From Gammaproteobacteria bacterium (lineage in GTDB: Bacteria; Pseudomonadota; Gammaproteobacteria; S012-40): a DNA stretch of 64,000 nt. Below are positions 39,962 through 55,317 of the stretch, piece after piece. The stretch spans positions 62,001-126,000 of the forward strand of contig JAOUMY010000008.1 of NCBI GenBank assembly GCA_029881255.1, in the 5' to 3' direction. The position numbers were made by a program, and so were the translations under genes. The notes beneath the pieces were generated by a model. It was not told where the DNA came from and searched no databases. It saw nothing but the letters and a program-made list of their open reading frames with translations. Position 1 is the first letter of the stretch. Every line of letters begins with the position of its first letter.

Positions 39962-41989
39962 TCAAAACGCATAGCGATAAACAAGATTAAATACTGCTTG
40001 TTCAAAATTATTTTCCGGACGTTGACGATTCCTCTGCCACTCGTAGCCAAGTTCCAATTGATTCCATACAGTCTTCTGCCATTGATAATTGAACTTTATC
40101 ACTGGTCTCAGGATGTACGATTCTTCGCCGCTATGGCTCACACGCACGCTGGCGATAACATTTTGGTCGATCACGAAACTCGTAACTGGCTTCATACTGT
40201 AGCGAAAATTAAAACGATAGTTTGTGGAATTCCGTGAAATAGTATACCTAACGCCCAGATCAACTCCATCATTCCAAGGTTTGTATATTTGTCGCTTCGA
40301 TACAGACGCATACACGTCGGTATTAGCATCGCTATCCTTAACTTCTTTTTCGCCATCCCGATAACGATAGGAATAGATGGATCGAAAGACATCGAGTTTA
40401 ATACTAAGTTGACGGGGAAAAGCGTACTCCGCGCCGGCATTGTAATATTCGCTAATACTACTATAGAGTTCCGCTCTTCTTTTTATCTCATCAATCTCTA
40501 TGATTTCCTGCAATGTCGAAAACTCATCAACGCGAAATTCTCCTATCATCGCATTCTCTATCTCAAGCATCGGGCTACGACGCATTTCAGCCGTAAAATA
40601 TGTAGTTAGCTTATCGAAGAAACGATAGTTCCCCTGTATAGATATAAGATTGAGTTTTTCGAAATACACATCGTAGTCTAAGGCTTGACGTACAAATCCG
40701 TTTTGGTCACTAAACGCTATTTCCTCTCCCAATGCCGCTCTCCCGGTCACATTGTTATACCGTTGGTAAGCGCCATAAGGCTGTACCTGCCATCCATTAC
40801 GTCGATATATCAGGCTGGCAGTGTTTACATACTTCTCGTATTGTATTCTGTCCTTACTATCAAAGCGCACAGGAAATCCGCCAGCAACAGCCATCGCAAG
40901 ACGGGAACCCAGCGCATATTCCAGGTACGCGCCGTCGTACTTACCAAACATGCCGCCATAAAGTCCTCTGTGTCTTCCCCCTCCCGCTTTCAGACCGGTA
41001 CCACTATTACGATATTCGAAAAAAACATCATTAAACTCTACGCCTTCACCGGCGCGATTAACCAGGTCATAGCGTTGATCCACTGCCATATCGAAACGCC
41101 ACATTTTTCGCTTGTCTGTCATGCGAGAACCGAGATTGATGCCGGATAAAACCATTGCCTGCTCCAGTCCGTTGGCATCGAGTCCACGTCGATCGGTTAC
41201 CAGCATCATTTGATTTAACGCCCCATACACTTTTTTCTGTCCGGGCTTGTTCTGCTGGATCGGGTTCAAAGCTACGATAGGCGCTTTTACTTCTAATTGA
41301 TTATTCAACAGTCCTGAAAGCCTCTGTCGAACGCGAACTATATTTTCGTCTTTTGGATATTCATCTAAAAATCGACGATACAAGGACGCTGCCTGAGCCT
41401 GCTGGCCGTTACGCTCTCGTGCAACGCCCAGTTTTTCCAACGCAATGGCGCTGTTGGGAGATATCTCCGCTAAAACGCCTTCTAATAATTGAATAGCGTC
41501 GTCGTAGCGTTGTTTTTGCAATGCCCTGTCAGCAATTAACAACTTCATTTGATGTTTGTAATACTTATCCTTCGCGCTCATTGACGGTGAAGAGAACACC
41601 AACGTCACCACATTTCGCGTTAGCCCGTGGTGAACGCGCGTACGCAGCGGATTGACGAATTGCATATCAAGCGAAATCTTTCCCTTTTTTGTTTTTACGT
41701 CAAACGATTTAACAAGATTTTGTTTTTTCAATTCCTCTAGTACCAATTTCAGATTGGCATTGTCGCACTTTCGCCTTAGTTTGAAAGAAAGTGCGAGTCT
41801 TTCCTGAACACGATCTTCTATTTGATCATGAGCAATACTGATCTTACTCGCAAGTTCCAACTCCAACATACGAAGCGCGTCATTTCCGTATGTGTCGACT
41901 TGTTGAAAACACATATGGGAAGTGGCGTAGGTTCTGGGCGTAACACCAAAAACCAAGACTAGTGAAAATAGGAGGACAAATTTTTTCAT
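39962..41989 (-). CDS. TPR plus outer-membrane beta-barrel protein of the multihaem operon
   Basis: The 675-residue protein has a signal peptide (VLLFSLVLVFGVTPRTYA), an N-terminal domain with TPR-like repeats at about 150-240 (YDDAIQLLEGVLAEISP, then NGQQAQAASLYRRFLDEYP), and from about 250 on alternating amphipathic strands typical of an outer-membrane barrel. It ends VFNLVYRYAF, with the C-terminal Phe used by the BAM machinery. There is no haem motif. The ATG overlaps the stop of the 64-haem gene by one base, so the two are coupled. By analogy with MtrB-type porin-cytochrome conduits it could house or export the cytochrome, but the barrel part (about 430 residues) is shorter than MtrB and sequence similarity to it was not seen. 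Confidence 0.75.
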   Translation of the reverse strand: MKKFVLLFSLVLVFGVTPRTYATSHMCFQQVDTYGNDALRMLELELASKISIAHDQIEDRVQERLALSFKLRRKCDNANLKLVLEELKKQNLVKSFDVKTKKGKISLDMQFVNPLRTRVHHGLTRNVVTLVFSSPSMSAKDKYYKHQMKLLIADRALQKQRYDDAIQLLEGVLAEISPNSAIALEKLGVARERNGQQAQAASLYRRFLDEYPKDENIVRVRQRLSGLLNNQLEVKAPIVALNPIQQNKPGQKKVYGALNQMMLVTDRRGLDANGLEQAMVLSGINLGSRMTDKRKMWRFDMAVDQRYDLVNRAGEGVEFNDVFFEYRNSGTGLKAGGGRHRGLYGGMFGKYDGAYLEYALGSRLAMAVAGGFPVRFDSKDRIQYEKYVNTASLIYRRNGWQVQPYGAYQRYNNVTGRAALGEEIAFSDQNGFVRQALDYDVYFEKLNLISIQGNYRFFDKLTTYFTAEMRRSPMLEIENAMIGEFRVDEFSTLQEIIEIDEIKRRAELYSSISEYYNAGAEYAFPRQLSIKLDVFRSIYSYRYRDGEKEVKDSDANTDVYASVSKRQIYKPWNDGVDLGVRYTISRNSTNYRFNFRYSMKPVTSFVIDQNVIASVRVSHSGEESYILRPVIKFNYQWQKTVWNQLELGYEWQRNRQRPENNFEQAVFNLVYRYAF

Positions 41990-44900
41990 TACCAGTCCCT
42001 CGATGAAGACGAGTGTTTGCCGCTGCGTCTGGTTAGAATACGTGTGAACGTATTATCACTATAAAGATGACATGCACCGGAACAATCACGGAGCTCGCTT
42101 ACTGTGTAAAATATTGTTGTAGGTACTTGCGTCTTTTTGTGTTGCGTGACTTCATAATCACCTGCATGACAGCCAGCGCAGTCCGGCGCATAGGCTGGAG
42201 ATCGCCATGGAATGACTTCGCTATTACTGGTATGACACGCCACGCATAGACGCCCTGCATGCCCGCCAGGATAGTTTGTCGATTCATGGGTAAAGAGTTT
42301 TGTCGGTGTCCAGCCGGTAGTGCTATGACAACGATCGCAGGCCGCCGTGGTGACAAAGTGAGAAGTCGAGTACTTCACCGCATAGGTGCCATTATGGCAA
42401 GTTGCGCACGCGAGGCTGGTCTGTGAGTGATTAAACGTACTAGGCCTCCAGGCACTGCTTCGGTGACAAGCGCTACAATCCAATGTGGTAGGAATATGCG
42501 TGTTCGTTTTGCCGGTGGCAGTAGTTCCGTTATGACACGTCTGACAATCGCTGGTTATACCCACATGACTGAAGTTCACATTGGACCAGTTCACAGTATC
42601 GTGACAATCCCCACAGCTATCACTGCTTGCGATATGCGTCGGTCCCTTACCCTGAACGCTGACGTTATTATGACAAGTTACACAACTCACAGTCGCATCG
42701 GCATGATTAAAGGTCGCGTTTGTCCATAGAGGATAGGAGTGGCAGTGAGCACAGTCGTTGTTACTCGCAATATGCGTCGGTGTCTTACCAGTCGCATAAG
42801 TATTGTTGTGACAGGTAAAACAACTTGTCGTAATTGTGCTGTGATTGACAGTTGCCCCCAACCAACTTGAGGTCGAAGTATGACAGCTAGCACAGTTGTC
42901 ATCGCTAGGTATATGAGTAACAGGTTTTCCAGAACGAATGACATTATTGTGACAATTTGAGCAACCAACTGTTGCATCAGCATGACTAAAAACCGCGTTC
43001 GTCCAAACTGGATACGTATGACAGTGCGCACAATCGTTGTTGCTCACAATGTGATTGCTATTTTTACCCGTCGCGTAGGTCCCGTTGTGACAGGTGAAGC
43101 AAGTAGCTGTCAACACATCATGATTAACTGTTGCCCCGATCCAGGTGCTCGTTGAACGATGACAGGCTGAGCAATCGTCTCCGCTTGGAATATGTGACGG
43201 ACTCTTTCCCGGCTTTATGACATTGTTGTGACACTGTACGCAAGCAACAGTCGCCTCAGCATGGTCAAATCGCGCGCCAGTCCATAGCGGATAGGTGTGA
43301 CAGTGAGCACAGTCATTATTGCTGATAATGTGTGTCGCTGACTTTCCAGTGGCGTATGTGCTGTTGTGGCAGGTAAAACAGGTAACACTTAGCGTATCGT
43401 GATTCACGCGTGCCCCGAGCCAACTCGTCGTCACGGTATGACACGATACGCAATCATCACCACTTGGAATGTGAGTGGGCGTCTTACCCGAACGAATCAC
43501 ATTGTTGTGACACTGCACACAGGCAACAGTTGCCTCTGCATGATCAAATCGCGCGCCTGTCCACACCGGATAGCTATGGCAGTGGGCGCAATCGTTATTA
43601 CTGACTATGTGTATCGCGGGCTTGCCACTGGCAAAGCTGCCGTTATGACAGGTGTAGCAATTACTGGTCAAACTATCATGATTTACCCTCGCGCCAAGCC
43701 AGCTAGCTGTCGAAGTATGGCATGAGGCACAATCATCGCTACTTGGAATATGCGAAGCGCTCTTACCCGATCGAATCACATTGTTGTGGCACTGAATACA
43801 ACTCACAGTAGCGTCTGCATGATCGAAACGTGCATTTGTCCATAACGGATAGCCATGGCAATGCGCGCAATCGTTATTGCTGATGATGTGATTGGCGGAC
43901 TTGCCTGTTGCGCCTGTACCGTTGTGGCAATTGAAACATCCACTACTGATGGCATCATGGTTGACTGTAGCACCGATCCAGCTGGTTGTTGTATGGCAAC
44001 TGCTGCAATCGTCACTACTCAGTATATGATCGGTCCCCTTGCCCTGTCGTATTACATTATTGTGACATTGAGAACAGGCGACGGTTGCTTCACTGTGATC
44101 AAAACGTGCGCCAGTCCAGTTGGGATAGCTATGGCAATGGGCACAATCATTGTTAGTAATGATGTGTGTATTGGATTTTCCTGTCGCATAGGTATTGTTA
44201 TGACAGCTAAAACAGGCCATCGAGATGGTAGCATGATTCACCTGAGCACCGATCCAGCTAGACGTTGAACTGTGACAACTGCCACAGTCGTCACCACTCG
44301 GGATATGTGTAGCCGTCTTACCAGACATAATCGTATTGTTATGGCACTGCACACAGGCGACCGTCGCATCCACATGGTCAAATCTTGCATTCGTCCAATT
44401 CGGATAGCTATGACAATGTGCACAATCATTATTACTGACGATATGATTGTTCGGTTTGCCAGTGGCCTGCCCACCGTTGTGACAACGGAAACAATTCGTG
44501 CCAACCGTACTGTGATCGACGGCTGTTGCATTCCAGTTCGCCGTTGTATGACAAGTCGCGCAACTGTCACTACTCACAATATGATTGGCGGGTTTGCCTT
44601 GCACAATCGTATTGTTATGACATACCGAGCACTCGGCACTGGTTTCAGCATGATCGAATACCGCATTTGACCAGGCAGGATAACGATGACAGTGCGCACA
44701 ATCATTATTGCTAATTATATGGTTCGCTGTCTTTCCACCGGCTATAGCGCCGTTATGGCAGGTAAAACAGTTGTCGACAATAAGGCTATGATCGACCTGA
44801 ACCGGCGTCCAACTCGTCGTGTTATGACAGTTCTCACAACTACTACTGCTGGCGACATGATTTGTCGGCTTACCTTCCCGAATTGTGTTGTCGTGACACT

Positions 44901-46644
44901 GGGCGCACGGCGTCGTGACATTACTATGACTAAAACGCGCGTTTGTCCATTGTGGGTAACTATGGCACTGGGCGCAGTCGTTATTGCTTACGATATGATT
45001 ATTGGTCTTGCCCGTAGCGTCACGTCCGTTATGGCAGGTATAACAATTATTGCCGACGCTAGCATGGTCAACCTGTGCCTGACTCCAGGACTGGCTCGTA
45101 TGACAGCTTTCGCAGGTGTTACCGCTGGCGATGTGATCAGAAGGTTTGCCTTCGACAATGGTGTTGTTATGACATTGAAAACAACCTGTACTTACGCCAC
45201 TATGATCGAATCTCGCACCTTTCCATCGCGGATATTGATGACAAAGAGCACAATCATTACTACTGATTATGTGCGATTCATTCTTACCTGAGGAAATTGA
45301 TCCGTTGTGGCAACTGTAACAGGCATCGCCAACGACATCGTGGTTAACGCGAGCACCAGTCCATACCGTGGTGTTATGGCATGATTCACAATCGTTTCCG
45401 CTGGGAATATGATTATTCGGTTTACCTCCAACGATTGCATTGTTGTGACATTGGACGCAATTGCTTGTTGTTTCATTATGCGAGAATTTTGCACCACGCC
45501 AGCTTGGATAGCTATGGCAACTGGCACAATCGTTATTGCTTACAATATGCGTATTATGCTTACCGGTAGCATCTTTGCCATTGTGACAGGTAAAACAGCC
45601 ACTACTGATATTACTGTGATCAACCTTTCCACCTTTCCATGAGATAACGCTGTGGCAGTCGCTACATTGATTGCCTGATTGAATGTGACCGGCCTGCTTT
45701 CCTGTGGCATAGCCTCCGTTGTGGCAGGAATAACATTGATCTCCGACGAAACTATGATCTACACGCGCGGGTTTCCACTTACCTGTCTGGTGACATTGTT
45801 CACATTGATTGGAGGCAGGCAAATGATTCTTGTCTTTACCCTTGGCAAAGCTGCTATTGTGACAGGTAATACACGCCTGTCCCTGGTTGTCATGATTCAT
45901 CTGCGCGTCCGTCCATCCACGCGTAGAATGACAGTCAACGCAAGCGTTCGTGGAAGGAATATGCTCTTTTGGTTTACCACTGACAATTTGATTGTTGTGG
46001 CAAGATAGGCAGTCATCGCCGGACTGCTGGTGCTCATATTGAACCGGCGACCAGCGTGTCTGATTGTGGCAGTCACCGCACTGGTTATTGCTCGGAATAT
46101 GTAGATTCGGTTTGCCGTTAGCGTTCACGTTATTGTGGCAGATAAAACACTCGAAATCTTCCTGGTGGGAAAAGCGCGCCGGCTTCCAGGACAAGGTACC
46201 GTGACAGGTATTACAATCGCTACGCACTTGAATGTGGTCGTGCGGCATTTCTCCGGCAATGCCCATTTTGTGACAAGACTGACAGCTACCACGCATGGAA
46301 TCGTGGTCAACCGTCCGCGTTTTCCATGAAAATACGGTATGACAGTTATCGCAGGTATGGTCACTGGGAATGTGTTGTGTATGCTTCCCACTGGCACGAT
46401 TGCCGTTATGACATGACTGACATCTTACCGGCGTACCACGAAACACGCCTCGCTGGTGACATTCTTCACAAGCCGTTGCCGCGTGGCGGCCGTTTAACGG
46501 AAATCCGGTTTCAAAGTGATCAAAATTGGCGTTAAACGCCAGGCTTTCACTGGAAAAAAAGAACGAGGAAAACGATATCAGTGTCAGCATCATCAGTTGC
46601 ACAACAATAGAATGCGTGCTGCGGTGTATCCTTGCTATTTGCAT
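41989..46644 (-). CDS. Giant exported multihaem cytochrome c (64 haem motifs)
   Basis: The 1551-residue protein starts with a long signal peptide (VVQLMMLTLISFSSFFF, cleaved near SLA-F). I count 63 CxxCH motifs plus one CxxxCH (CSGACH) near the C-terminus. From about residue 330 to 1380 the chain is built from a 93-residue module holding four motifs, for example CAHCH, CVQCH, CxSCH, CFTCH, with a conserved His outside each motif (FDH, HIPS, VNH, HIIS) that could be the second axial ligand. The first 330 residues follow the same spacing with more divergence. There is no transmembrane helix after the signal. It is followed by the barrel gene with a one-base overlap and preceded 51 bases away by the 21-haem gene. 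A periplasm-spanning or extracellular electron wire is inferred. Confidence 0.92.
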   Translation of the reverse strand: MQIARIHRSTHSIVVQLMMLTLISFSSFFFSSESLAFNANFDHFETGFPLNGRHAATACEECHQRGVFRGTPVRCQSCHNGNRASGKHTQHIPSDHTCDNCHTVFSWKTRTVDHDSMRGSCQSCHKMGIAGEMPHDHIQVRSDCNTCHGTLSWKPARFSHQEDFECFICHNNVNANGKPNLHIPSNNQCGDCHNQTRWSPVQYEHQQSGDDCLSCHNNQIVSGKPKEHIPSTNACVDCHSTRGWTDAQMNHDNQGQACITCHNSSFAKGKDKNHLPASNQCEQCHQTGKWKPARVDHSFVGDQCYSCHNGGYATGKQAGHIQSGNQCSDCHSVISWKGGKVDHSNISSGCFTCHNGKDATGKHNTHIVSNNDCASCHSYPSWRGAKFSHNETTSNCVQCHNNAIVGGKPNNHIPSGNDCESCHNTTVWTGARVNHDVVGDACYSCHNGSISSGKNESHIISSNDCALCHQYPRWKGARFDHSGVSTGCFQCHNNTIVEGKPSDHIASGNTCESCHTSQSWSQAQVDHASVGNNCYTCHNGRDATGKTNNHIVSNNDCAQCHSYPQWTNARFSHSNVTTPCAQCHDNTIREGKPTNHVASSSSCENCHNTTSWTPVQVDHSLIVDNCFTCHNGAIAGGKTANHIISNNDCAHCHRYPAWSNAVFDHAETSAECSVCHNNTIVQGKPANHIVSSDSCATCHTTANWNATAVDHSTVGTNCFRCHNGGQATGKPNNHIVSNNDCAHCHSYPNWTNARFDHVDATVACVQCHNNTIMSGKTATHIPSGDDCGSCHSSTSSWIGAQVNHATISMACFSCHNNTYATGKSNTHIITNNDCAHCHSYPNWTGARFDHSEATVACSQCHNNVIRQGKGTDHILSSDDCSSCHTTTSWIGATVNHDAISSGCFNCHNGTGATGKSANHIISNNDCAHCHGYPLWTNARFDHADATVSCIQCHNNVIRSGKSASHIPSSDDCASCHTSTASWLGARVNHDSLTSNCYTCHNGSFASGKPAIHIVSNNDCAHCHSYPVWTGARFDHAEATVACVQCHNNVIRSGKTPTHIPSGDDCVSCHTVTTSWLGARVNHDTLSVTCFTCHNSTYATGKSATHIISNNDCAHCHTYPLWTGARFDHAEATVACVQCHNNVIKPGKSPSHIPSGDDCSACHRSTSTWIGATVNHDVLTATCFTCHNGTYATGKNSNHIVSNNDCAHCHTYPVWTNAVFSHADATVGCSNCHNNVIRSGKPVTHIPSDDNCASCHTSTSSWLGATVNHSTITTSCFTCHNNTYATGKTPTHIASNNDCAHCHSYPLWTNATFNHADATVSCVTCHNNVSVQGKGPTHIASSDSCGDCHDTVNWSNVNFSHVGITSDCQTCHNGTTATGKTNTHIPTTLDCSACHRSSAWRPSTFNHSQTSLACATCHNGTYAVKYSTSHFVTTAACDRCHSTTGWTPTKLFTHESTNYPGGHAGRLCVACHTSNSEVIPWRSPAYAPDCAGCHAGDYEVTQHKKTQVPTTIFYTVSELRDCSGACHLYSDNTFTRILTRRSGKHSSSSRDW
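42390..45650 (-). repeat. Tandem 279-bp repeats encoding four-haem modules
   Basis: The coding DNA repeats with a period of about 279 bases (276 where one residue is missing), each unit encoding four CxxCH motifs. Central units are the most alike: SNNDCAHCH recurs with the same following YPxWTxARFDH in most copies, and the antisense word ACAATCGTTATTGCT or close variants appears repeatedly. The outer units are more varied. The limits given are approximate. Confidence 0.8.
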
Positions 46645-46695
46645 CTTTTACATCCCTAATTTCATCGTTCGCCTCGAATGTCGTCGGCGATTCCT

Positions 46696-48261
46696 CTAGT
46701 CAAATTGCACTTCTTTGAAGGTTTTTTCGTTATGGCAATTTCCACAGTTGCTTCCAAACTGTCCGTCATGCATATCATTCTGAAGATGACAGCTAACACA
46801 CTCGTCATCAATCTCGCGACTACCTTTTAGATGACAGGCATAACAGGTCTGCTTCTTGTGTTTTCCCTTTAATTCAAAATCGGTCTGGCGATTGTGATCA
46901 AACTTCCACGCCTTCCAGTCGGCTACCAGATGACAATCGGCACATTTGTCCCCAAACAGTTTTTCGTGAACCTCTGGATCCTTGTGACAGCCTTTGCACT
47001 TGTGTTCGGTATCGACATACTTCTGATCTTTGTGGCACTGTTCACACATAACAGTTTGATGCACACCGACGAGTGGGAAGTCGGTCAGACCATGATCAAA
47101 TTTCACTGTATCTATCCATTGCGTGGACGAATGACATTGTTGGCAACGCTTACCTAGCTCTTTATCATGCACATCGATCGCGCGGTGGCATGAGTAACAA
47201 TCCGCCGGGAGTGAATACAGCTTCCCCGTCTTTACATGGCAGTAGCTACAGTCAATATCCTTATGCTTACCAGTCAGTTCGAAACCAGTAGTTTCATGCT
47301 CAAACTTCTGTTTATCCCAGGCACGAGGACTATGGCAGGTCTCACACTTTTTTCCGAATCTGCGCAGATGTTTATCCCTAACATCGTGACAACTGACACA
47401 GGTCTTTTTGAGACTGACTTCGTAAGCATCCTCAACATGACAGTTCTCACAGGCAACGCTTTTGTGTTTGCCATTTAGATCGAACTTGGTGTCCTTATCA
47501 TGATCGAATCGAATCTTTCCCCACGCATCCTCTTTGTGACACTTATCGCACTTTGTCCCCATGCGCCCACGATGCACGTCTGTTTTTTCATGGCAACTAT
47601 GGCAACTGACTTTCTCGAAGGTATATCGATTGGCAGGGTGACAAGACGCGCAGGCGACTAAACGATGCGAGTCTTTTAACGTAAACTTCGTTTTGTCATG
47701 TTGAAAATCAGCAATCCGCCATTGATTATCGACATGGCAATCCTGACACCGATTTCCGAAATATCCGTCATGCGCGTCCTGTTCCTTATGGCACTCGGCA
47801 CAACTATACTTTGCCTCATGATATTTCTTACCCTTCTTATGGCAGGCATCACACTCGACAAATGCGTGAGTGCGATTCAGAGGGAAGTCGGTATCGTCGT
47901 GATTGAATAGACGTTCGTCCAGTAAAATCAAAGCCTGATTATCCTCACCCAAATGTTCACGATGACATTCCCTGCAATCTCGTTTGCGTATCGTTTCATT
48001 TTTTCCGTGGTAACCGCGCTTTTCCAACAAATCGTTGCGTATATTGCGATGATCGTGACAATCAACGCACAGACGATTTTGCGCTCCTTTATCAAACATC
48101 ACGTGGCAGTTATTACAATCCTCAGCAAATTTGGTATGCACTTTCGCCAGCTTTCCCGGCATAAGTGAACGCTCCAACATATTGGCGATATCAGCATCCG
48201 CAATCGTTGCCCAACACAAGGTCACAAACACCCAAACAACATAGAAACCAGGACGCCGCAT
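46696..48261 (-). CDS. 21-haem periplasmic cytochrome c
   Basis: The 521-residue protein has a signal peptide (VVWVFVTLCWATIADA) and 21 CxxCH motifs counted by eye. They lie in a repeating c3/c7-like pattern of about 70 residues: CxxCH, a KHK or HR His, CxxCH, DxH, FGxxCxxCH, W, FDH. Basic and acidic residues alternate, in contrast to the Ser/Thr/Asn-rich 64-haem partner. The start abuts the end of the membrane cytochrome gene. It probably takes electrons from that protein in the periplasm and passes them to the 64-haem cytochrome. Confidence 0.92.
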   Translation of the reverse strand: MRRPGFYVVWVFVTLCWATIADADIANMLERSLMPGKLAKVHTKFAEDCNNCHVMFDKGAQNRLCVDCHDHRNIRNDLLEKRGYHGKNETIRKRDCRECHREHLGEDNQALILLDERLFNHDDTDFPLNRTHAFVECDACHKKGKKYHEAKYSCAECHKEQDAHDGYFGNRCQDCHVDNQWRIADFQHDKTKFTLKDSHRLVACASCHPANRYTFEKVSCHSCHEKTDVHRGRMGTKCDKCHKEDAWGKIRFDHDKDTKFDLNGKHKSVACENCHVEDAYEVSLKKTCVSCHDVRDKHLRRFGKKCETCHSPRAWDKQKFEHETTGFELTGKHKDIDCSYCHVKTGKLYSLPADCYSCHRAIDVHDKELGKRCQQCHSSTQWIDTVKFDHGLTDFPLVGVHQTVMCEQCHKDQKYVDTEHKCKGCHKDPEVHEKLFGDKCADCHLVADWKAWKFDHNRQTDFELKGKHKKQTCYACHLKGSREIDDECVSCHLQNDMHDGQFGSNCGNCHNEKTFKEVQFD

Positions 48262-49152
48262 TTAGTACACATGAACCGCAAATACATGTATTGAACCGCT
48301 AGCAAAAAGCAGAACCAAAAGCGGCATGTGCGCATAACGCCAGATGCGGAAAAAGGACTCATAAATGCGCAGATATATCAGGCGATGCAAGGTATCCAGA
48401 TAGTGATTCATTAACGACCTTGCCACATCATCCAAATCCCTGGACAGCTCACGCAGCATTTTTCGGCGAGTCAACGGAAACGACAAATAGGTCAACATGG
48501 CAGATGACAAAGTAAACCGTCTTTGCAAAAATTTTTCGCGCATTTCCTGCGTACGCTGACTTATTGCGCTGCTACTCTCGAAGGAACTCAGTTCCTCTTC
48601 TATGCCCATCGCTATTAAATGACGATTGCCTATTCCATAATGAATTCTTGTGTATAGAAAACGACCGATTACACCGCTGACGAAGACCAGTAAGGCTGAC
48701 ACCAGGGCAACACCGCCATTGATTGAACCGATGTGGAAAGTACTGTGAATGACAATCAGATAAACCCCGACAACGCCAAACACAATGTGAAGAGAAAGTG
48801 ATCTGAGCAACAGTCCTTTTTGGCGTAGACCGGAGGAATGTTTCACAAAGGCATAGGCATAGGCGAAGAGCATGAGTATGCCGCCAGTCAATCCCAGGCC
48901 GTAGCCAAAACCTTCCTCAGGGACATAATATCGCTCGTCCCAGTACACCCGGCCAACGCCAAAGAGCACGATCATACTGCCCAGTAAGCACAAGGAAATC
49001 ATTACTGATCGCGTTGTTTTGACGCCGCGTTTGCCTGTGTTTTTTGAGCCGGCGTGACTCAATTGCACGACAGGCATATTTCCATTGTTTCCCATATTTC
49101 CTTTCTTCCCTGCAGACTGTTTGTCTGCCCTTACTTTGGCAGAAATTTTCAC
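48262..49152 (-). CDS. Five-helix membrane protein, putative b-type cytochrome
   Basis: First gene of the multihaem operon. The 296 residues have a basic N-terminal 45, helices near 50-70, 83-103, 118-140, 145-166 and 270-293, and a charged cytoplasmic segment at 170-265. Helix three contains H-x13-H (from SLHIVFG to VIHST) and helix five contains another H-x13-H (YAHMPLL to SIHVFA). Two helices each carrying two His with this spacing is the dihaem arrangement of ferric-reductase/NOX-like and related b cytochromes. No FAD domain is attached, but a flavoprotein is encoded divergently. I recognise no named family; the haem b assignment is inference from His spacing and context. Confidence 0.6.
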   Translation of the reverse strand: MKISAKVRADKQSAGKKGNMGNNGNMPVVQLSHAGSKNTGKRGVKTTRSVMISLCLLGSMIVLFGVGRVYWDERYYVPEEGFGYGLGLTGGILMLFAYAYAFVKHSSGLRQKGLLLRSLSLHIVFGVVGVYLIVIHSTFHIGSINGGVALVSALLVFVSGVIGRFLYTRIHYGIGNRHLIAMGIEEELSSFESSSAISQRTQEMREKFLQRRFTLSSAMLTYLSFPLTRRKMLRELSRDLDDVARSLMNHYLDTLHRLIYLRIYESFFRIWRYAHMPLLVLLFASGSIHVFAVHVY

Positions 49153-49301
49153 TGGTTTTTATTGTTTAATTTACAAAGACATAGAATAACTTCACAGACG
49201 TTAGCCAATACTGAGTATGCTGATTGGCATTTCCCTCGCTAACGAGAGGAAACTGTCATTTGCGTTGCCCCCTGTTTCCATTGCGATTATGATACCAATT
49301 T

Positions 49302-49317
49302 TGTGATTTTTTTCTCA
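49302..49317 (+). promoter_or_regulatory. CRP/FNR-like palindrome upstream of the flavoprotein gene
   Basis: TGTGA, six T bases, then TCTCA: nine of ten positions match the CRP consensus TGTGA-N6-TCACA. It lies 33 bases before the flavoprotein ATG, in the 197-base divergent region shared with the cytochrome operon. It is a single site seen by eye, and the run of T bases makes chance matching more likely. Confidence 0.35.
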
Positions 49318-49349
49318 AATATTATTTACCGTATAGAAGGGGAAATAAC

Positions 49350-50666
49350 ATGAGTGAAAGCTGGGAAACGCCAGCGCTGGTCAGTTTGTATCTGCTGCCT
49401 TTTCTCGGACTGGTGTTATGGCAAACCTCACGGAGACGCCAGATCAACCGCAGCAACAAGGCTCAAATTGATGAGAACAAAGCGAGCGGCCTCACCCAAC
49501 CCGCCTCGCTGCATCCGGTTATCGACAAGAATCTTTGTATCGGATGTAACTCCTGTGTCGCAGCCTGCCCCGAAGGCAATGTGTTAGGCATCGTCGACGA
49601 CAAAGCTGAGCTGGTAAACCCGACCTCATGTATCGGTCACGGAGCGTGCGCCCGTGCCTGTCCCATGGGCGGCATACGCCTGGTGTTTGGTAGTGCGGAG
49701 CGCGGCGTTGACATACCTCTACTTAGCGAAAATTTTGAGTCCAATGTTCCTGGGATTTTTCTCGTCGGTGAAGTGGGTGGAATGGGATTGATCCGGAATG
49801 CCATGGAACAAGGCAAGCGAGCCATAGACTACATACGCAATATCATCAACAAAAGTGACCGCAAATCACTCGACGTTCTGATAGTAGGCGCTGGTCCTGC
49901 CGGTATCTCCGCAAGCATTGCTGCCAAATACTATGGATTGCGGTATCGCACCATCGAGCAACAAAGTTTTGGTGGGACCGTTGCGCACTATCCGCGTGGA
50001 AAACTCGTTATGACGCAACCGGTGGACTTACCCGGCATCGGCAAGATTCGTATTGGAGAAATCAAAAAGGAAGATCTGTTATCCATTTGGGAAGATTTGA
50101 AATCGCGTGCAAATATTGAAATTCATTATCAGGAATCGTTTGTGTCGCTTGAAAAAGACGGCGCAAATTACCGTATAACAACCACTGCAGGCGAATTTGT
50201 TTGCAAAACGCTAGTGTTTGCAATTGGTAGGCGTGGTACGCCGCGCAAACTTGAAGTCCCCGGCGAATCTGATTCGAAAGTTGTCTATTCACTGGTTGAT
50301 CCAGCACAGTATCGCGGACAAAAGGTATTAGTCGTAGGTGGTGGTGACAGTGCGCTTGAGGCGGCGATTGCCCTGGCCGAAGAAGCCAACACCACGGTGA
50401 CCTTGTCCTACCGGGGCGATGCCTTCAATCGCGCAAAGTTAAAGAATCGCGATCGTCTAAAAAAACATGTGGACAAGGGACGAATTCGACTACTTCTCAG
50501 TTCAGTTGTGGAATCTATCCATAGTGACAAGGTGACAATCAAATTAAAAGAAGAACTGTTGACGCTTGAAAACGACGCCATACTCGTTAGCGTGGGCGGT
50601 ATACTGCCTACCAAAATGCTTACCGATTTGGGAATCGAAATAGAAACGAAATTTGGTACGGCATAA
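49350..50666 (+). CDS. Membrane-anchored iron-sulfur flavoprotein oxidoreductase
   Basis: The 438-residue protein has an N-terminal helix (LVSLYLLPFLGLVLW), then a ferredoxin-like domain with CIGCNSCVAACP at residues 63-74 and CIGHGACARACP at 94-105. In the second motif the second Cys is His97. A thioredoxin-reductase-like domain follows, with the FAD motif VGAGPAGIS near 174, the NAD(P) motif VVGGGDSALEA near 330, and a C-terminal GGILPT loop. It has no CxxC redox-active disulfide. It is divergent from the multihaem operon, so it may feed electrons from NAD(P)H into the membrane b cytochrome or take them back. SD GAAGGGG supports the start. Confidence 0.88.
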   Translation: MSESWETPALVSLYLLPFLGLVLWQTSRRRQINRSNKAQIDENKASGLTQPASLHPVIDKNLCIGCNSCVAACPEGNVLGIVDDKAELVNPTSCIGHGACARACPMGGIRLVFGSAERGVDIPLLSENFESNVPGIFLVGEVGGMGLIRNAMEQGKRAIDYIRNIINKSDRKSLDVLIVGAGPAGISASIAAKYYGLRYRTIEQQSFGGTVAHYPRGKLVMTQPVDLPGIGKIRIGEIKKEDLLSIWEDLKSRANIEIHYQESFVSLEKDGANYRITTTAGEFVCKTLVFAIGRRGTPRKLEVPGESDSKVVYSLVDPAQYRGQKVLVVGGGDSALEAAIALAEEANTTVTLSYRGDAFNRAKLKNRDRLKKHVDKGRIRLLLSSVVESIHSDKVTIKLKEELLTLENDAILVSVGGILPTKMLTDLGIEIETKFGTA

Positions 50667-50674
50667 ATACTCGC

Positions 50675-51373
50675 TCATCCCTGAAACGCGTTTGCAAACA
50701 CCTGTTGCTGAAACCACAGGATGGACGGATACGCAGAAATCCAGATCCAGAAGAAGCGATTCAAGCCAAACAAACAGGCATTCGTAAAATGAAAAATGGC
50801 AGTTATACACAAGGCAATCGTCAGCGCCGTCTGGGCGAACAGGGCCAATGGGAATAATAATTCAAATCCCATCACGCTCCATGACATTACAAAAAGCAAC
50901 CGCGGGTGATTGGCCCAGCCACGAAGCGACTCGCTCACCGGATATACAGAGAAGCGAAAAACGTCTTGTAAGGCAAGCCCATTACGCCATTCTGGATTAA
51001 CGACTTTTACCCAGCCCGAAATAAAATAGGATAAAGTCAGTTGCAGGGCGAGATAACCGATCGCTAATTCACGCCAATCATCATTTGGTGCGATATGCAC
51101 CAAAAACAGACACCAAAGCATCAATAGCCCCATGCGATCGGCACCGCCGTTATACGGCCCCTGAAACCGATGCAGTAGCGCCAGGGCCAATACAAACAAT
51201 AAACTCAGCACCCCACTGGGATATATATCAGCGATGAGCAACAGCGCCAACAAAAGACGGGGAAAATGGAGTATTTTCTCGCTGCGAAACGATCTCAGGT
51301 GCTCAATACTTTGCAGTGCGAATGCAAACCCCAACAATATTTCTGAGAGGCGCATCGCATCGACAAGATTCAT
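50675..51373 (-). CDS. HTTM-domain membrane protein
   Basis: The 232-residue protein has about six membrane helices and the HTTM pattern LTLSYFISGWVKVVNPEWRNGLAL (ends given) near residue 130, as in the membrane part of vitamin-K-dependent gamma-carboxylase relatives and DoxX-like proteins. There is no lumenal carboxylase domain. It overlaps the upstream gene by four bases. Function is unknown. Confidence 0.7.
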   Translation of the reverse strand: MNLVDAMRLSEILLGFAFALQSIEHLRSFRSEKILHFPRLLLALLLIADIYPSGVLSLLFVLALALLHRFQGPYNGGADRMGLLMLWCLFLVHIAPNDDWRELAIGYLALQLTLSYFISGWVKVVNPEWRNGLALQDVFRFSVYPVSESLRGWANHPRLLFVMSWSVMGFELLFPLALFAQTALTIALCITAIFHFTNACLFGLNRFFWIWISAYPSILWFQQQVFANAFQG

Positions 51374-51828
51374 GGTTCTTCCTGAGCCGGGAGCGATCTG
51401 ATGTCGGAATAGAATACCACTTCTTCAGTCAGTTGCTGCCCTTCACGTGACACCAGTAGTAAACGAAACTGTATTGCCGAATATTGCTTACGGGATATGC
51501 TGCTGTCAGCATTGAGATCTGCCAGGATACGCATAAAGATCTCGTTCTCACTATGAGGAGTTGGATTAATGAGAAGTCGCTCGGAACAACTCACCACAAA
51601 TAGTGATGCATTCCAATAGGGATTCCATATCATACGCCTGAGCATGGAAGCGAAACTAATATGGGCAGGCTTGGGCCGATACTCTTGCCAGTGAGACGCC
51701 GAGGAAGTTCGTGATTCTAACAAAGCAAACTGAACGCGTGGGGATGGGGCAATAAAATCAAAAAACCGCCACGAGGGAATAACAGCCGGTAACAGTAGTT
51801 TAAATGTCCGCCAAATCACACCCATCAC
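51370..51828 (-). CDS. Partner of the HTTM protein, unknown function
   Basis: This 152-residue protein has a hydrophobic N-terminus (VIWRTFKLLLPAVIPSWRFFDF) and a soluble remainder. The sequence IPSWRFFDFIAPSPRVQFAL recalls small proteins often encoded next to HTTM genes. The gene is coupled to its neighbours: 3 bases after the ankyrin gene and a four-base overlap with the HTTM gene. No catalytic motif is seen. Confidence 0.6.
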   Translation of the reverse strand: MMGVIWRTFKLLLPAVIPSWRFFDFIAPSPRVQFALLESRTSSASHWQEYRPKPAHISFASMLRRMIWNPYWNASLFVVSCSERLLINPTPHSENEIFMRILADLNADSSISRKQYSAIQFRLLLVSREGQQLTEEVVFYSDIRSLPAQEEP

Positions 51829-51831
51829 TTG

Positions 51832-54546
51832 TCAATCCGTATCGATAAATTGCGTCATCCCCTTCTCACGCGCGACATCACGTTGAGTTTTGCCAAAAAG
51901 GTTTTTCATCTTCGTACCCGCACCTGCCTTTACCAGTTGCTGCGCTGCGAGCCCCTGATCCGCATCCAGGGCGATATGTAAAGCGGTATCTCTGGCGCTG
52001 TTTTCCAAATCGAGCAATTCTGCCTCTGACAAAAGTCGCCTGATCAAGACCACGTTTCCAGACTTTGCAGCAAAGTGTAGTACACTGTCGCCCTGCCTGG
52101 TACGTAGCTCAGTTTTTGCGCCCTTGTTGAGTAATAGCGTGGCCACGTCATAACGCTGTTGCCTGACACTTTCCATTAAAGGGGTGACCCCTGCACGATC
52201 TGCTATGTCGATATCTGCACCGTGCCTGACGGCATATTCCAACATGAGACGATTTCCATCCCGAGCTGCCTGCCATACCACGCCTCTACCATGCTTGTCC
52301 TGCCAACTCCAGGGATTGATTTGTTTTCCCAACTGAGCGGCAAGCCCAGTTTGCTTGTTCACTACCGCATAGGAGAAAACTTCATAGTATGCATCCAGCG
52401 TCTCACCAAGCGCTCCCGCCTCAATGAGTGTAGAAAGCAGTTCCGCATAGCCGTATTCGAGCGCTAACATTAAGGCCGTTCGTTTATTGTGATCGATAAG
52501 CCCGGCATTGGCACCGCGTTTTAACAATAACAGTGCTATATCCCTATTTCCGATGCGTACTGCATGCATGAGTAAGGTCTGCTTACGAGTATCACGGCTA
52601 TCCACATGCATGCCCTTGTCCAAAAGCAACTGCACAATTTCTAATTTCCCTGCCTGTATGGCGACAATAGCGCAACGTACGCTGGCCTCATCAACAGGTA
52701 GTAGTTTTTTCTTTTCAAGTGCCAGGCGTAAAGTCGACACGTCACCCTGCCAGGCGGCATTCATCCACTCGTCCCAGCCGCTACTCTTGCGATGACGACT
52801 TTTAGCTAACCAGGAATAATCAAGCTCTGCCCGTATCTCCTCTTTGTCTTTGCCCAGTAGCAAACCTTTTTGCGCCAGATACGCACCCAACTGTGGGTTG
52901 GCTTCACTCAATCGATACATATCCATGCCGTGATTGTCCACGGCGTAGAGGTTTGCGCCGTGCTTAATCAAAAGATTAATCGCTTCGATAAACCCGTTTT
53001 TCATCGCTATAAGAAGCGCGGTTTCTCCTACTCTATTCCTGGTTTCAAGCATCGCTCTCTGGCCGATCAAATACTCAACTAAAGAGTATTGTTGATGACG
53101 TATCGCGACCATTAGTGGCGTGTCACCATTGCTATCCTTGGTATCAATTGCATAGCCCTGGGCCAATAGGCGCTCGACCAGAAGTTGACTGCCTGACTTG
53201 GCAGCCGCCAGCAGTATTCTCTCTCCGAAACTGGTATCCTCGTGCAAGGCTTTAGCGCCTCGCCACAATTTTTCCGCCTGATCTAAACGATTCGCTTGTA
53301 ATAATCCGACAATAATCTGCTCCAACATCCCGATACCTGGAGTCGCAATCTCAACAAAACGTGCCTGCGATTCTCCTTTATCCTCTGGGAAATAGTTGCG
53401 TACATATCGCAATACATCCTCTAAAATCGACTCCGATAAACGATGTTTTTGCAGTAGCAATAAAACAATTTCACTCTTCTTCTCTCTGATTAATGCATTT
53501 AAAATATAAGAAAGTTGTTCTGTTTCCAGTTGTAGTCCGGCATCGAGCAACAGCGACACGGTATCCTTGTGCATTTCCCGCAAGCCATAATAGAGCGCAT
53601 TGTAGCCAAATTTGTCAGCCAAATAATTTGAATGCCCTGCCTGTAACAGTTGCTTAGCAGCATCGGTGTTACCCGTTAAAGCAGCGATGTGCAGTGCGGT
53701 ACGATTATTGGCGTCGAGAAGATCAGCGGGAAAATTCGTTTGCTGTAACTCACGTACGTATACACCTGATTTTCTTGCTGCTGCCAGATGCATAAAGGAT
53801 TGCTCGTAGCTACTTCGAAATGTTTTGTCTATCTTCTGATCTTTTAGTACAACGGATACCGATATCTCGTCGCCAAAACGTAAGGCATCGGCCAGGACTT
53901 CTTCCCGTATATCTCGGGCATCAGGATCATGTTGCCACGATGACACGAATTGCAAATACTGCTTTGAGCGCAGCAGACTGGTATAAAACGCATGAGGATG
54001 TGCTGATTGCGTTTGTTTATTTTTCACTCCACGCAAACGGGCAATCAGAGCATCGCTATCGACGCCTTTTGTTGCAGACGTGGAACAGCTTGCCAGCGCT
54101 TTTTTCATGGCCTCATCGTCTGGATTGAACTCCAGCACTAAACGCTCCATCGTCTTGTGCGTGTCCTGATAGCCATTGCCCCAGGCACACAGCGCCCATT
54201 TTCGAGCGCCCACCATGTCTTTTTGGGTCCCCTGTCCGTTTCTCAACATACTCGATAAGGCAAATTGCGCCGGCGCATACCCCTGTTTTGCGGCATAGGT
54301 ATATAACAGATAGGCCTTTGCATCGTCACGAGCCAGTCCGCGCCCTTTACGAAACATCTCTCCAAGCGAATGCATTGACGCGACATCTTTATTCTTCTCG
54401 CCCGATCGCCATAGTTCGATCGCCCTGGCATAGTCCCCGTTTTTGTATGCCTGCTCGCCTTCCTGGTGAAAATCACGCGCGGACACACTGTCGAAGAACA
54501 TCAACAAAACCATGCATTGAAGGGCTGATTTGAACCAATATTTCAT
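51832..54546 (-). CDS. Exported Sel1/ankyrin-repeat protein
   Basis: The product of about 904 residues starts with a signal peptide (FKSALQCMVLLMFFDSVSA) at the ATG 54546; an upstream ATG at 54615 would add 23 residues. Residues 30-110 form TPR/Sel1 repeats (GDYARAIELW, then ASMHSLGEMFRKGRG, then GYAPAQFALSSMLRNG). From about 215 to the end there are many ankyrin repeats (RTALHIAALTGNTDAAKQLL, DTPLMVAIRHQQYSLVEYL, KTELRTRQGDSVLHFAAKSG). It is probably a periplasmic binding scaffold. It is the first gene of the operon with the HTTM pair. Confidence 0.85.
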   Translation of the reverse strand: MKYWFKSALQCMVLLMFFDSVSARDFHQEGEQAYKNGDYARAIELWRSGEKNKDVASMHSLGEMFRKGRGLARDDAKAYLLYTYAAKQGYAPAQFALSSMLRNGQGTQKDMVGARKWALCAWGNGYQDTHKTMERLVLEFNPDDEAMKKALASCSTSATKGVDSDALIARLRGVKNKQTQSAHPHAFYTSLLRSKQYLQFVSSWQHDPDARDIREEVLADALRFGDEISVSVVLKDQKIDKTFRSSYEQSFMHLAAARKSGVYVRELQQTNFPADLLDANNRTALHIAALTGNTDAAKQLLQAGHSNYLADKFGYNALYYGLREMHKDTVSLLLDAGLQLETEQLSYILNALIREKKSEIVLLLLQKHRLSESILEDVLRYVRNYFPEDKGESQARFVEIATPGIGMLEQIIVGLLQANRLDQAEKLWRGAKALHEDTSFGERILLAAAKSGSQLLVERLLAQGYAIDTKDSNGDTPLMVAIRHQQYSLVEYLIGQRAMLETRNRVGETALLIAMKNGFIEAINLLIKHGANLYAVDNHGMDMYRLSEANPQLGAYLAQKGLLLGKDKEEIRAELDYSWLAKSRHRKSSGWDEWMNAAWQGDVSTLRLALEKKKLLPVDEASVRCAIVAIQAGKLEIVQLLLDKGMHVDSRDTRKQTLLMHAVRIGNRDIALLLLKRGANAGLIDHNKRTALMLALEYGYAELLSTLIEAGALGETLDAYYEVFSYAVVNKQTGLAAQLGKQINPWSWQDKHGRGVVWQAARDGNRLMLEYAVRHGADIDIADRAGVTPLMESVRQQRYDVATLLLNKGAKTELRTRQGDSVLHFAAKSGNVVLIRRLLSEAELLDLENSARDTALHIALDADQGLAAQQLVKAGAGTKMKNLFGKTQRDVAREKGMTQFIDTD

Positions 54547-54682
54547 AGATTTCCTTCGATTCTCTCGCCAGGCTTTATGGTTAACCATCAATTTTACCAG
54601 TTGATACTTTTTCACTCAGGTCTTTAAATATAAATCGATTGCCGGAAGCAATTTTCTCACCATTCAAGCCAAGGAGTATGGT

Positions 54683-55003
54683 ATGCAATTTTTTCTGGAT
54701 TTCAATGTAGAGTATGGGGCTCATATGAGCCAAAACGATCTTTTTTCGACCTGGTCGCGGGAGGCCGATGTGGCGCTTGGCGCAAAAGCCGCCGGGGTAG
54801 TCGAAAACCTGTGGAAGTGCGTCGGGGAACGACGAGTGATCGCCGTCGTAAATGTTGAAACACCGGATCAACTCGATCAGATTTTGATGGATCTTCCCAT
54901 CATGAAAGAAATGGGACAGTTTGTTCGGGTAAATGTCACGCCTCTGCGTCGTTATGAAGACTTCGCCAGCGACGTTGGTAAACGACTACGAGACAACAAT
55001 TAA
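54683..55003 (+). CDS. Muconolactone-isomerase-like small protein
   Basis: The 106 residues fit the ferredoxin-like fold of muconolactone delta-isomerase relatives: MQFFLDFNVEYG, a helix WSREADVALGAKAAG, then VENLWKCVGERRVIAVVNVET and DQILMDLPIMKEMGQFVRVNVTPL (ends given). True isomerases act in catechol degradation, but no pathway genes are nearby, so the substrate is unknown. It is divergent from the ankyrin gene. It is likely a decameric or dimeric soluble protein of the same fold. Confidence 0.65.
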   Translation: MQFFLDFNVEYGAHMSQNDLFSTWSREADVALGAKAAGVVENLWKCVGERRVIAVVNVETPDQLDQILMDLPIMKEMGQFVRVNVTPLRRYEDFASDVGKRLRDNN

Positions 55004-55050
55004 GATAGGCCGGGCCCGTCGATGGCTTTTATTGGCGGGCCGGGATTTCT

Positions 55051-55317
55051 CTATTCCTTGCTACTATTCATCAAGCTGTCTAATTCGCCGTCCATTTTCA
55101 TCATGGTCAGTTCGCTAAAACTGCCTATCCATTCCCCTTGCACGACAATCTGGGGCACGCTGCGAGAACCATTGCTGATTTGCAACATTTCCACCAGCCA
55201 GGCGCGATTCTGATCGACCCTTTTTTCTTCAAACGAGATGCCCCATTTGGTCAACAATGCCTTGCTACGCTCACACAACGGACAGGTGCCGGTGCTATAA
55301 ATGACAACTGATGTCAT
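55051..55317 (-). CDS. Glutaredoxin
   Basis: An 88-residue glutaredoxin with the active site YSTGTCPLCERSKALL near residue 11 and the cis-Pro loop GSRSVPQIVVQGEWIG. The CPLC site is less common than CPYC. It reduces disulfides or glutathionylated proteins. It converges with the isomerase-like gene; the gap holds a GC-rich hairpin (GGCCCG/CGGGCC) that may serve as a terminator. Confidence 0.92.
   Translation of the reverse strand: MTSVVIYSTGTCPLCERSKALLTKWGISFEEKRVDQNRAWLVEMLQISNGSRSVPQIVVQGEWIGSFSELTMMKMDGELDSLMNSSKE

Follow-up and report, generated by a model that had tools for sequence, protein, structure and literature searches.

Does a group of five genes in a gammaproteobacterial genome encode a route for electrons through the whole cell envelope and, if so, has such a system been described before? 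The genes lie in a stretch of 64,000 nt (hereafter the window) from Gammaproteobacteria bacterium (S012-40; GCA_029881255.1, contig JAOUMY010000008.1, positions 62,001–126,000, forward strand), and an initial annotation had read them as a trans-envelope conduit with about 85 haems, for which it knew of no described system. All five open reading frames were confirmed at the coordinates it had given, and its haem count stands: 63 CXXCH motifs and one CXXXCH in one cytochrome plus 21 CXXCH in the other make 85 motifs. The conduit reading is indeed the one best supported by the gene set; for four of the genes it coincides with a published proposal, that of porin-cytochrome c complex 3 (PCC3), and is not new.

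Gene layout and assignment to PCC3

In coordinate order, the minus strand encodes a 675-aa TPR/beta-barrel protein, predicted to be an outer-membrane porin of PCC3 type (39962..41989), a predicted extracellular multihaem cytochrome of 1551 aa with 64 haem motifs (41989..46644), a predicted periplasmic 21-haem cytochrome of 521 aa matching Cytochrome_C7 in Pfam (46696..48261), and a 296-aa inner-membrane protein with two HX13H helices, the “IMP” of PCC3 (48262..49152). The first two genes overlap by one base, 51 bp separate the two cytochrome genes, and the last two genes abut. A divergent intergenic region of 197 bp (49153..49349), with promoter-like matches on both strands (by consensus match only), leads to the fifth gene, on the plus strand (49350..50666), for a 438-aa FAD/NAD(P) oxidoreductase with two predicted [4Fe-4S] clusters and a putative membrane anchor, which we propose as a fifth subunit. 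The tight packing that had been put forward as evidence therefore describes the four minus-strand genes and does not apply to the flavoprotein gene, because the latter is divergent and set apart by the 197-bp gap.

The surroundings of the cluster include an IS200-like Y1 transposase gene (PF01797; 38807–39529) directly downstream of it and, on the other side, two small genes (50675–51828), one for a protein with an HTTM domain and one for a 152-aa protein assigned to no family, relatives of which were looked for in other loci and not found. Beyond them lies a possible accessory gene for a 927-aa Sel1/ankyrin-repeat protein (51832..54615, minus strand; Pfam Ank and Sel1). Of 38 flavoprotein loci, 24 have such a gene immediately downstream of the flavoprotein gene and in the same orientation; the copy in the window is on the opposite strand and is separated from the flavoprotein gene by the two small genes. 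Since ankyrin repeats match one another widely, the evidence for this association is one of position rather than similarity.

According to its main text, the paper that proposed PCC3 as a conduit (He et al., 2017; PMC5566968) defines it by four parts, namely a barrel, an extracellular and a periplasmic multihaem cytochrome, and a five-helix membrane protein of ~300 aa with WX3HX13H on TM3 and TM5 and SGXXG on TM4. The values published there are 10–85 haems for the extracellular cytochrome, a median of 21 for the periplasmic one and 22–39 residues per haem, and Amphritea atlantica is a case with 63 + 21 haems. A further paper on PCC3 is available (PMC10734462), and later papers keep the same four parts. 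The minus-strand genes of the window agree with this description in their 64 and 21 motifs, in the 24.2 (1551/64) and 24.8 (521/21) residues per haem, and in a 296-aa membrane protein with five hydrophobic segments and SGVIG. Assigned by these features rather than by alignment with a named PCC3 sequence, they almost certainly belong to PCC3, and the initial claim of an undescribed system therefore fails for four of the five genes. It holds for the flavoprotein, which lies beyond the four-part PCC3: the PCC3 literature in open-licence PubMed Central, including the main text of He et al. (PMC5566968), mentions no flavoprotein partner. A search of the same open-licence literature found neither biochemistry nor genetics of any PCC3.

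The cytochromes and the barrel

The haem motifs far exceed chance expectation in both cytochromes, with 1.0 expected from composition shuffles for the 64-haem protein (maximum 5 in 1000) and 0.27 for the 21-haem protein (maximum 3 in 1000). The larger protein has a signal-like N-terminus and is built of repeats of 92–93 aa carrying four haems (autocorrelation peaks at 46 and 92 aa); a histidine stands exactly 7 residues upstream of 57 of its 64 motifs and it has 79 non-proximal histidines overall, so that bis-His ligation is possible throughout. Its C-terminal cap, DCSGACH...W, is common to 20 other extracellular-type cytochromes with 16–144 haems. In its general form, C-x-[AG]-x-CH ... [FW], the cap is present in 21 of the 31 extracellular-type cytochromes that are complete, and all 31 periplasmic-type proteins, a set that includes a few overlapping loci, lack it. 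In the PDB, the 64-haem protein found a weak match to MtrC and nothing else. The smaller cytochrome consists of seven c7-like units of ~67 aa with three haems each, and a sequence search of the PDB found no relative; nearly all homologous loci encode a 21- or 24-haem protein. Its stop codon marks a natural end, because homologues terminate at this position, too, and share the C-terminal motif, and a premature stop was accordingly rejected. We infer an extracellular location for the 64-haem cytochrome and a periplasmic one for the 21-haem cytochrome.

Some homologous loci encode still larger or additional cytochromes. At L087:1021–13236 (G213 contig 17, about 43021–55236), a single ORF of 4071 aa adjoining a PCC3-type barrel gene has a signal-like N-terminus, the conserved C-terminal cap and 133 CXXCH motifs, or 144 haem motifs if CX3-4CH is counted. 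It exceeds the 85 haems which He et al. (2017; PMC5566968) give as the maximum in one protein, and a limited literature search found no published cytochrome with more haems. Large cytochromes in tandem are found at L038/L085 (G036 contig 126; 46+, 34, 24 and 21 haems) and at L044 (70, 24 and 21 haems).

The barrel protein has a signal-like N-terminus, TPR repeats at 151–214, a C-terminal part with alternating hydrophobicity (1.79 vs 1.18 shuffled) and an aromatic ending, -YRYAF, for which most of 18 homologues have a GYRWDF-type ending; a SPOR domain is present in 8 of the 18. A profile search of the PDB matched mainly TPR chains, and the AlphaFold2 model from a single sequence (pLDDT 32) was too poor for a fold search. 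Among NCBIfam models no MtrB/PioB-family match was found for the barrel; a search of the host genome for MtrB (TIGR03509) gave no match either, but since its control searches gave none, this does not demonstrate absence.

A proposed flavoprotein partner at the inner membrane

The membrane protein carries the two H-x13-H helices noticed in the initial annotation, with the pairs H122/H136 and H275/H289, and its SGVIG lies at 159. These four histidines and the SG..G are kept in nearly all of 34 homologues. Of the two WX3HX13H motifs, that on TM5 is complete, and Ser118 replaces the tryptophan on TM3, which nearly all other homologues possess. The charge pattern puts the N-terminus inside, which would place H122 and H275 near the cytoplasm and H136 and H289 near the periplasm, and the protein is a probable di-haem b electron carrier. 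No Pfam family matched the window protein, and the ferric reductase domain PF01794 matched neither it nor 23 homologues; one homologue weakly matches Ni_hydr_CYTB (0.0013). A profile search of the PDB yielded nothing useful, and the AlphaFold2 model from three sequences (pLDDT 50) was too poor for a fold search.

The flavoprotein combines Fer4 and Pyr_redox_3 domains. A hydrophobic N-terminal segment is found in 26 of 29 members, and in 27 there is more positive charge after this segment than before it, a pattern consistent with a protein anchored on the cytoplasmic side. In the motif of the second cluster, CxxHxxCxxxCP, the His and Cys columns are invariant in all 29, and this [4Fe-4S] cluster is probably His-ligated. 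A CxxC beyond the cluster motifs, as in a disulfide centre, is absent from all 29 members. The closest solved relatives are YpdA, thioredoxin reductases and ferredoxin-NADP reductases, the top-scoring one being annotated as the disulfide reductase YpdA.

Both proteins are inherited together. Among 274 genomes of the class, the membrane protein is present in 34, the flavoprotein in 35 and both in 33, leaving one genome with the membrane protein only and two with the flavoprotein only; two weak, distant membrane-protein matches (G167, G218) were set aside, and the next flavoprotein matches (E 1e-48 or weaker), other proteins of about 800 aa, were not counted. The Fisher p of 5e-39 is uncorrected for relatedness and overstates independence because the genomes are related, although they come from many families. 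In a phylum-wide draw of 349 genomes, strong matches to the two proteins coincided in four genomes, of which one is not a member of the class; the membrane-protein profile also gave weaker matches, to more distantly related proteins of smaller size. The two genes lie within 2 kb of each other in 28 of 38 homologous loci (27 of these divergent); in four they share a contig, in five the flavoprotein is on another contig, and one has no flavoprotein. The tree distances of the two proteins correlate as well (r 0.64, higher than in any of 2000 permutations). The initial annotation had named single, unlinked homologues as evidence against a conduit; this is not what we find. Its inclusion of the flavoprotein in the gene set was well judged and reaches beyond the four-part definition of PCC3.

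The pairing reaches the Bacteroidota, where plasmid pEMTOL02 of Emticicia oligotrophica encodes, in a single operon, CcsA, the membrane protein (profile E 9e-42, both WX3HX13H), the flavoprotein (47%), a 23-haem and a 40-haem cytochrome, and an outer-membrane-like protein that does not match the barrel profile; a tblastn search of plasmid records with the window membrane protein gave no match. Co-inheritance shows the flavoprotein to be functionally tied to PCC3; it does not show electron transfer between flavoprotein and membrane protein.

A second PCC3 locus of the host genome, L035 (G000 contig 10, 45001–65000), comprises a divergent flavoprotein (55%), a membrane protein, a 21-haem cytochrome, a barrel, a 149-aa ORF and a 47-haem cytochrome without the C-terminal cap. 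CcmH/CcmI-like TPR genes, recognized by reading of the sequence, adjoin the membrane-protein gene at L057:5840–6742 and L064:10480–11433 and, together with the CcsA of the Emticicia operon, suggest that haem-attachment genes may travel with such loci. A distant relative of the membrane protein at L071 (G167 contig 42) has as neighbours 10-haem proteins and a protein of 789 aa, part of which is flavoprotein-like; this may be another type of conduit.

Proposed electron path, direction and known systems

From the gene set, motifs, domains and co-inheritance, all directly readable in the DNA, we infer an electron path. The best explanation, with a probability of about 0.6, is a PCC3-type conduit with an NADPH-oxidase-like module at its inner-membrane end. 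At the cytoplasmic face, the flavoprotein would take two electrons from NAD(P)H via FAD and pass them on singly through its two [4Fe-4S] clusters, of which one probably has a His ligand. Two stacked b-haems in the five-helix membrane protein, held by H122/H275 towards the cytoplasm and by H136/H289 towards the periplasm, would take them across the inner membrane. The 21-haem cytochrome would bridge the periplasm, and the TPR/SPOR-type barrel would hold the passage through the outer membrane, beyond which the 64-haem cytochrome could extend as a linear wire, with its conserved C-terminal cap as a possible docking site. Such a module would feed the haem wire instead of, or besides, the published quinone link, and we regard a connection of the conduit to NAD(P)H as reasonably probable. 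An alternative role for the flavoprotein would be in redox sensing or in maturation.

As for direction, we slightly favour net outward flow, from NAD(P)H to an extracellular acceptor, over uptake from solid donors: the membrane potential assists electrons on their way out, and in Sideroxydans ES-1, the single organism examined, PCC3 was not induced by Fe(II). Expression of its PCC3 genes went down with Fe(II) (PMC8788666), and the amounts of those PCC3 proteins that were detected differed little among the samples, including those with magnetite. The host genome encodes RuBisCO and SoxB, which suit electron uptake by a lithoautotroph and count against our explanation. RuBisCO is found in 24 of 33 PCC3 genomes vs 118 of 241 others (p 0.015, not corrected for phylogeny), an association too weak to decide the direction.

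Inward flow is the essence of the published model (He et al., 2017; PMC5566968), in which the cytochromes conduct electrons from an extracellular donor, e.g., mineral Fe(II), to the membrane protein, which delivers them to the quinone pool; on this view, the flavoprotein would be a side branch or have no part in the flow. Besides the two host genes and the modest RuBisCO enrichment, it draws on the frequency of PCC3 among iron-oxidising Gallionellaceae, on the HX13H pairs known in quinone-active cytochromes b and on the weak Ni_hydr_CYTB match of one homologue. It leaves, however, a near-obligate flavoprotein unexplained and sits badly with the response of ES-1 to Fe(II) and the level protein amounts, and we consider it rather unlikely.

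More improbable is a flavoprotein that acts as a cytoplasmic redox sensor or as a cytochrome maturation enzyme, which might keep apocytochrome cysteines or haem reduced and be co-inherited since 85 haems need attaching. The CcsA and CcmH/CcmI-like neighbours and the YpdA annotation of the top-scoring solved relative fit such a role, but the lack of a disulfide centre does not, two [4Fe-4S] clusters and a membrane anchor are better suited to electron delivery, and reductant for cytochrome maturation is in any case available from general systems. The barrel, in turn, shares its TPR plus barrel architecture with polysaccharide secretion porins such as PgaA and BcsC and might export a polymer next to unrelated cytochromes; yet neither it nor 17 homologues match the families of these porins and in most PCC3-like loci a homologous barrel is clustered with the cytochromes, so that this reading is disfavoured and very improbable.

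Extending the NADPH-oxidase-like module to PCC3 at large, one may speculate, at somewhat less than even odds, that PCC3 is a split NADPH-oxidase-like machine rather than a quinone-linked iron oxidase. It would then represent a widespread class of trans-envelope wires running straight from the cytoplasmic NAD(P)H pool to minerals, electrodes or cells outside, and the iron-sulfur flavoprotein would be an overlooked subunit, obligatory from Pseudomonadota to Bacteroidota. Few envelope systems are known to be as rich in haem as PCC3, and what is new beyond its four parts is a near-obligate NAD(P)H-type flavoprotein partner that would give it a concrete inner end. If the link to NAD(P)H is true, the pyridine-nucleotide pool would be joined to the outside, bypassing quinone, and the expected direction and energetics would change, which also bears on the use of PCC3 genes as markers of iron oxidation. 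The flavoprotein, a single enzyme, would offer a simple handle in cultured organisms such as Sideroxydans lithotrophicus ES-1.

Among known systems, PCC3 is the closest, as it has an outer-membrane barrel, predicted for the locus as well, an extracellular multihaem cytochrome, a periplasmic cytochrome with 21 haems and a membrane protein whose five helices carry SGXXG and two HX13H; the locus differs in the co-inherited flavoprotein and, often, a Sel1/ankyrin gene, and in a serine in place of the first conserved tryptophan. MtrCAB, MtoAB and PioAB resemble it in principle, with a barrel and periplasmic and outer cytochromes across the outer membrane, and the repeats of the 64-haem protein score on the decahaem DmsE/MtrA family model; in contrast to these systems, the barrel has no MtrB/PioB match, the 21-haem protein is not decahaem and has no DmsE/MtrA match, there are 2–6 times more haems, and the cluster has no CymA-type partner. 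NADPH oxidases and ferric reductases (NOX/FRD) resemble the membrane protein in that a pair of helices, each with HX13H, serves to hold two stacked b-haems; its proposed partner here is a cytoplasmic FAD/NAD(P) enzyme. PF01794, however, is not matched, the partner is a separate TrxR-type flavoprotein with [4Fe-4S] clusters, and electrons would reach a cytochrome wire and not oxygen or iron directly. The FAD and NAD(P) domains of that flavoprotein, finally, align over their length with those of TrxR-type ferredoxin-NADP reductases and YpdA, from which it is distinguished by its membrane anchor, the lack of a disulfide centre and a fused domain for two [4Fe-4S] clusters with a conserved histidine at a ligand position.
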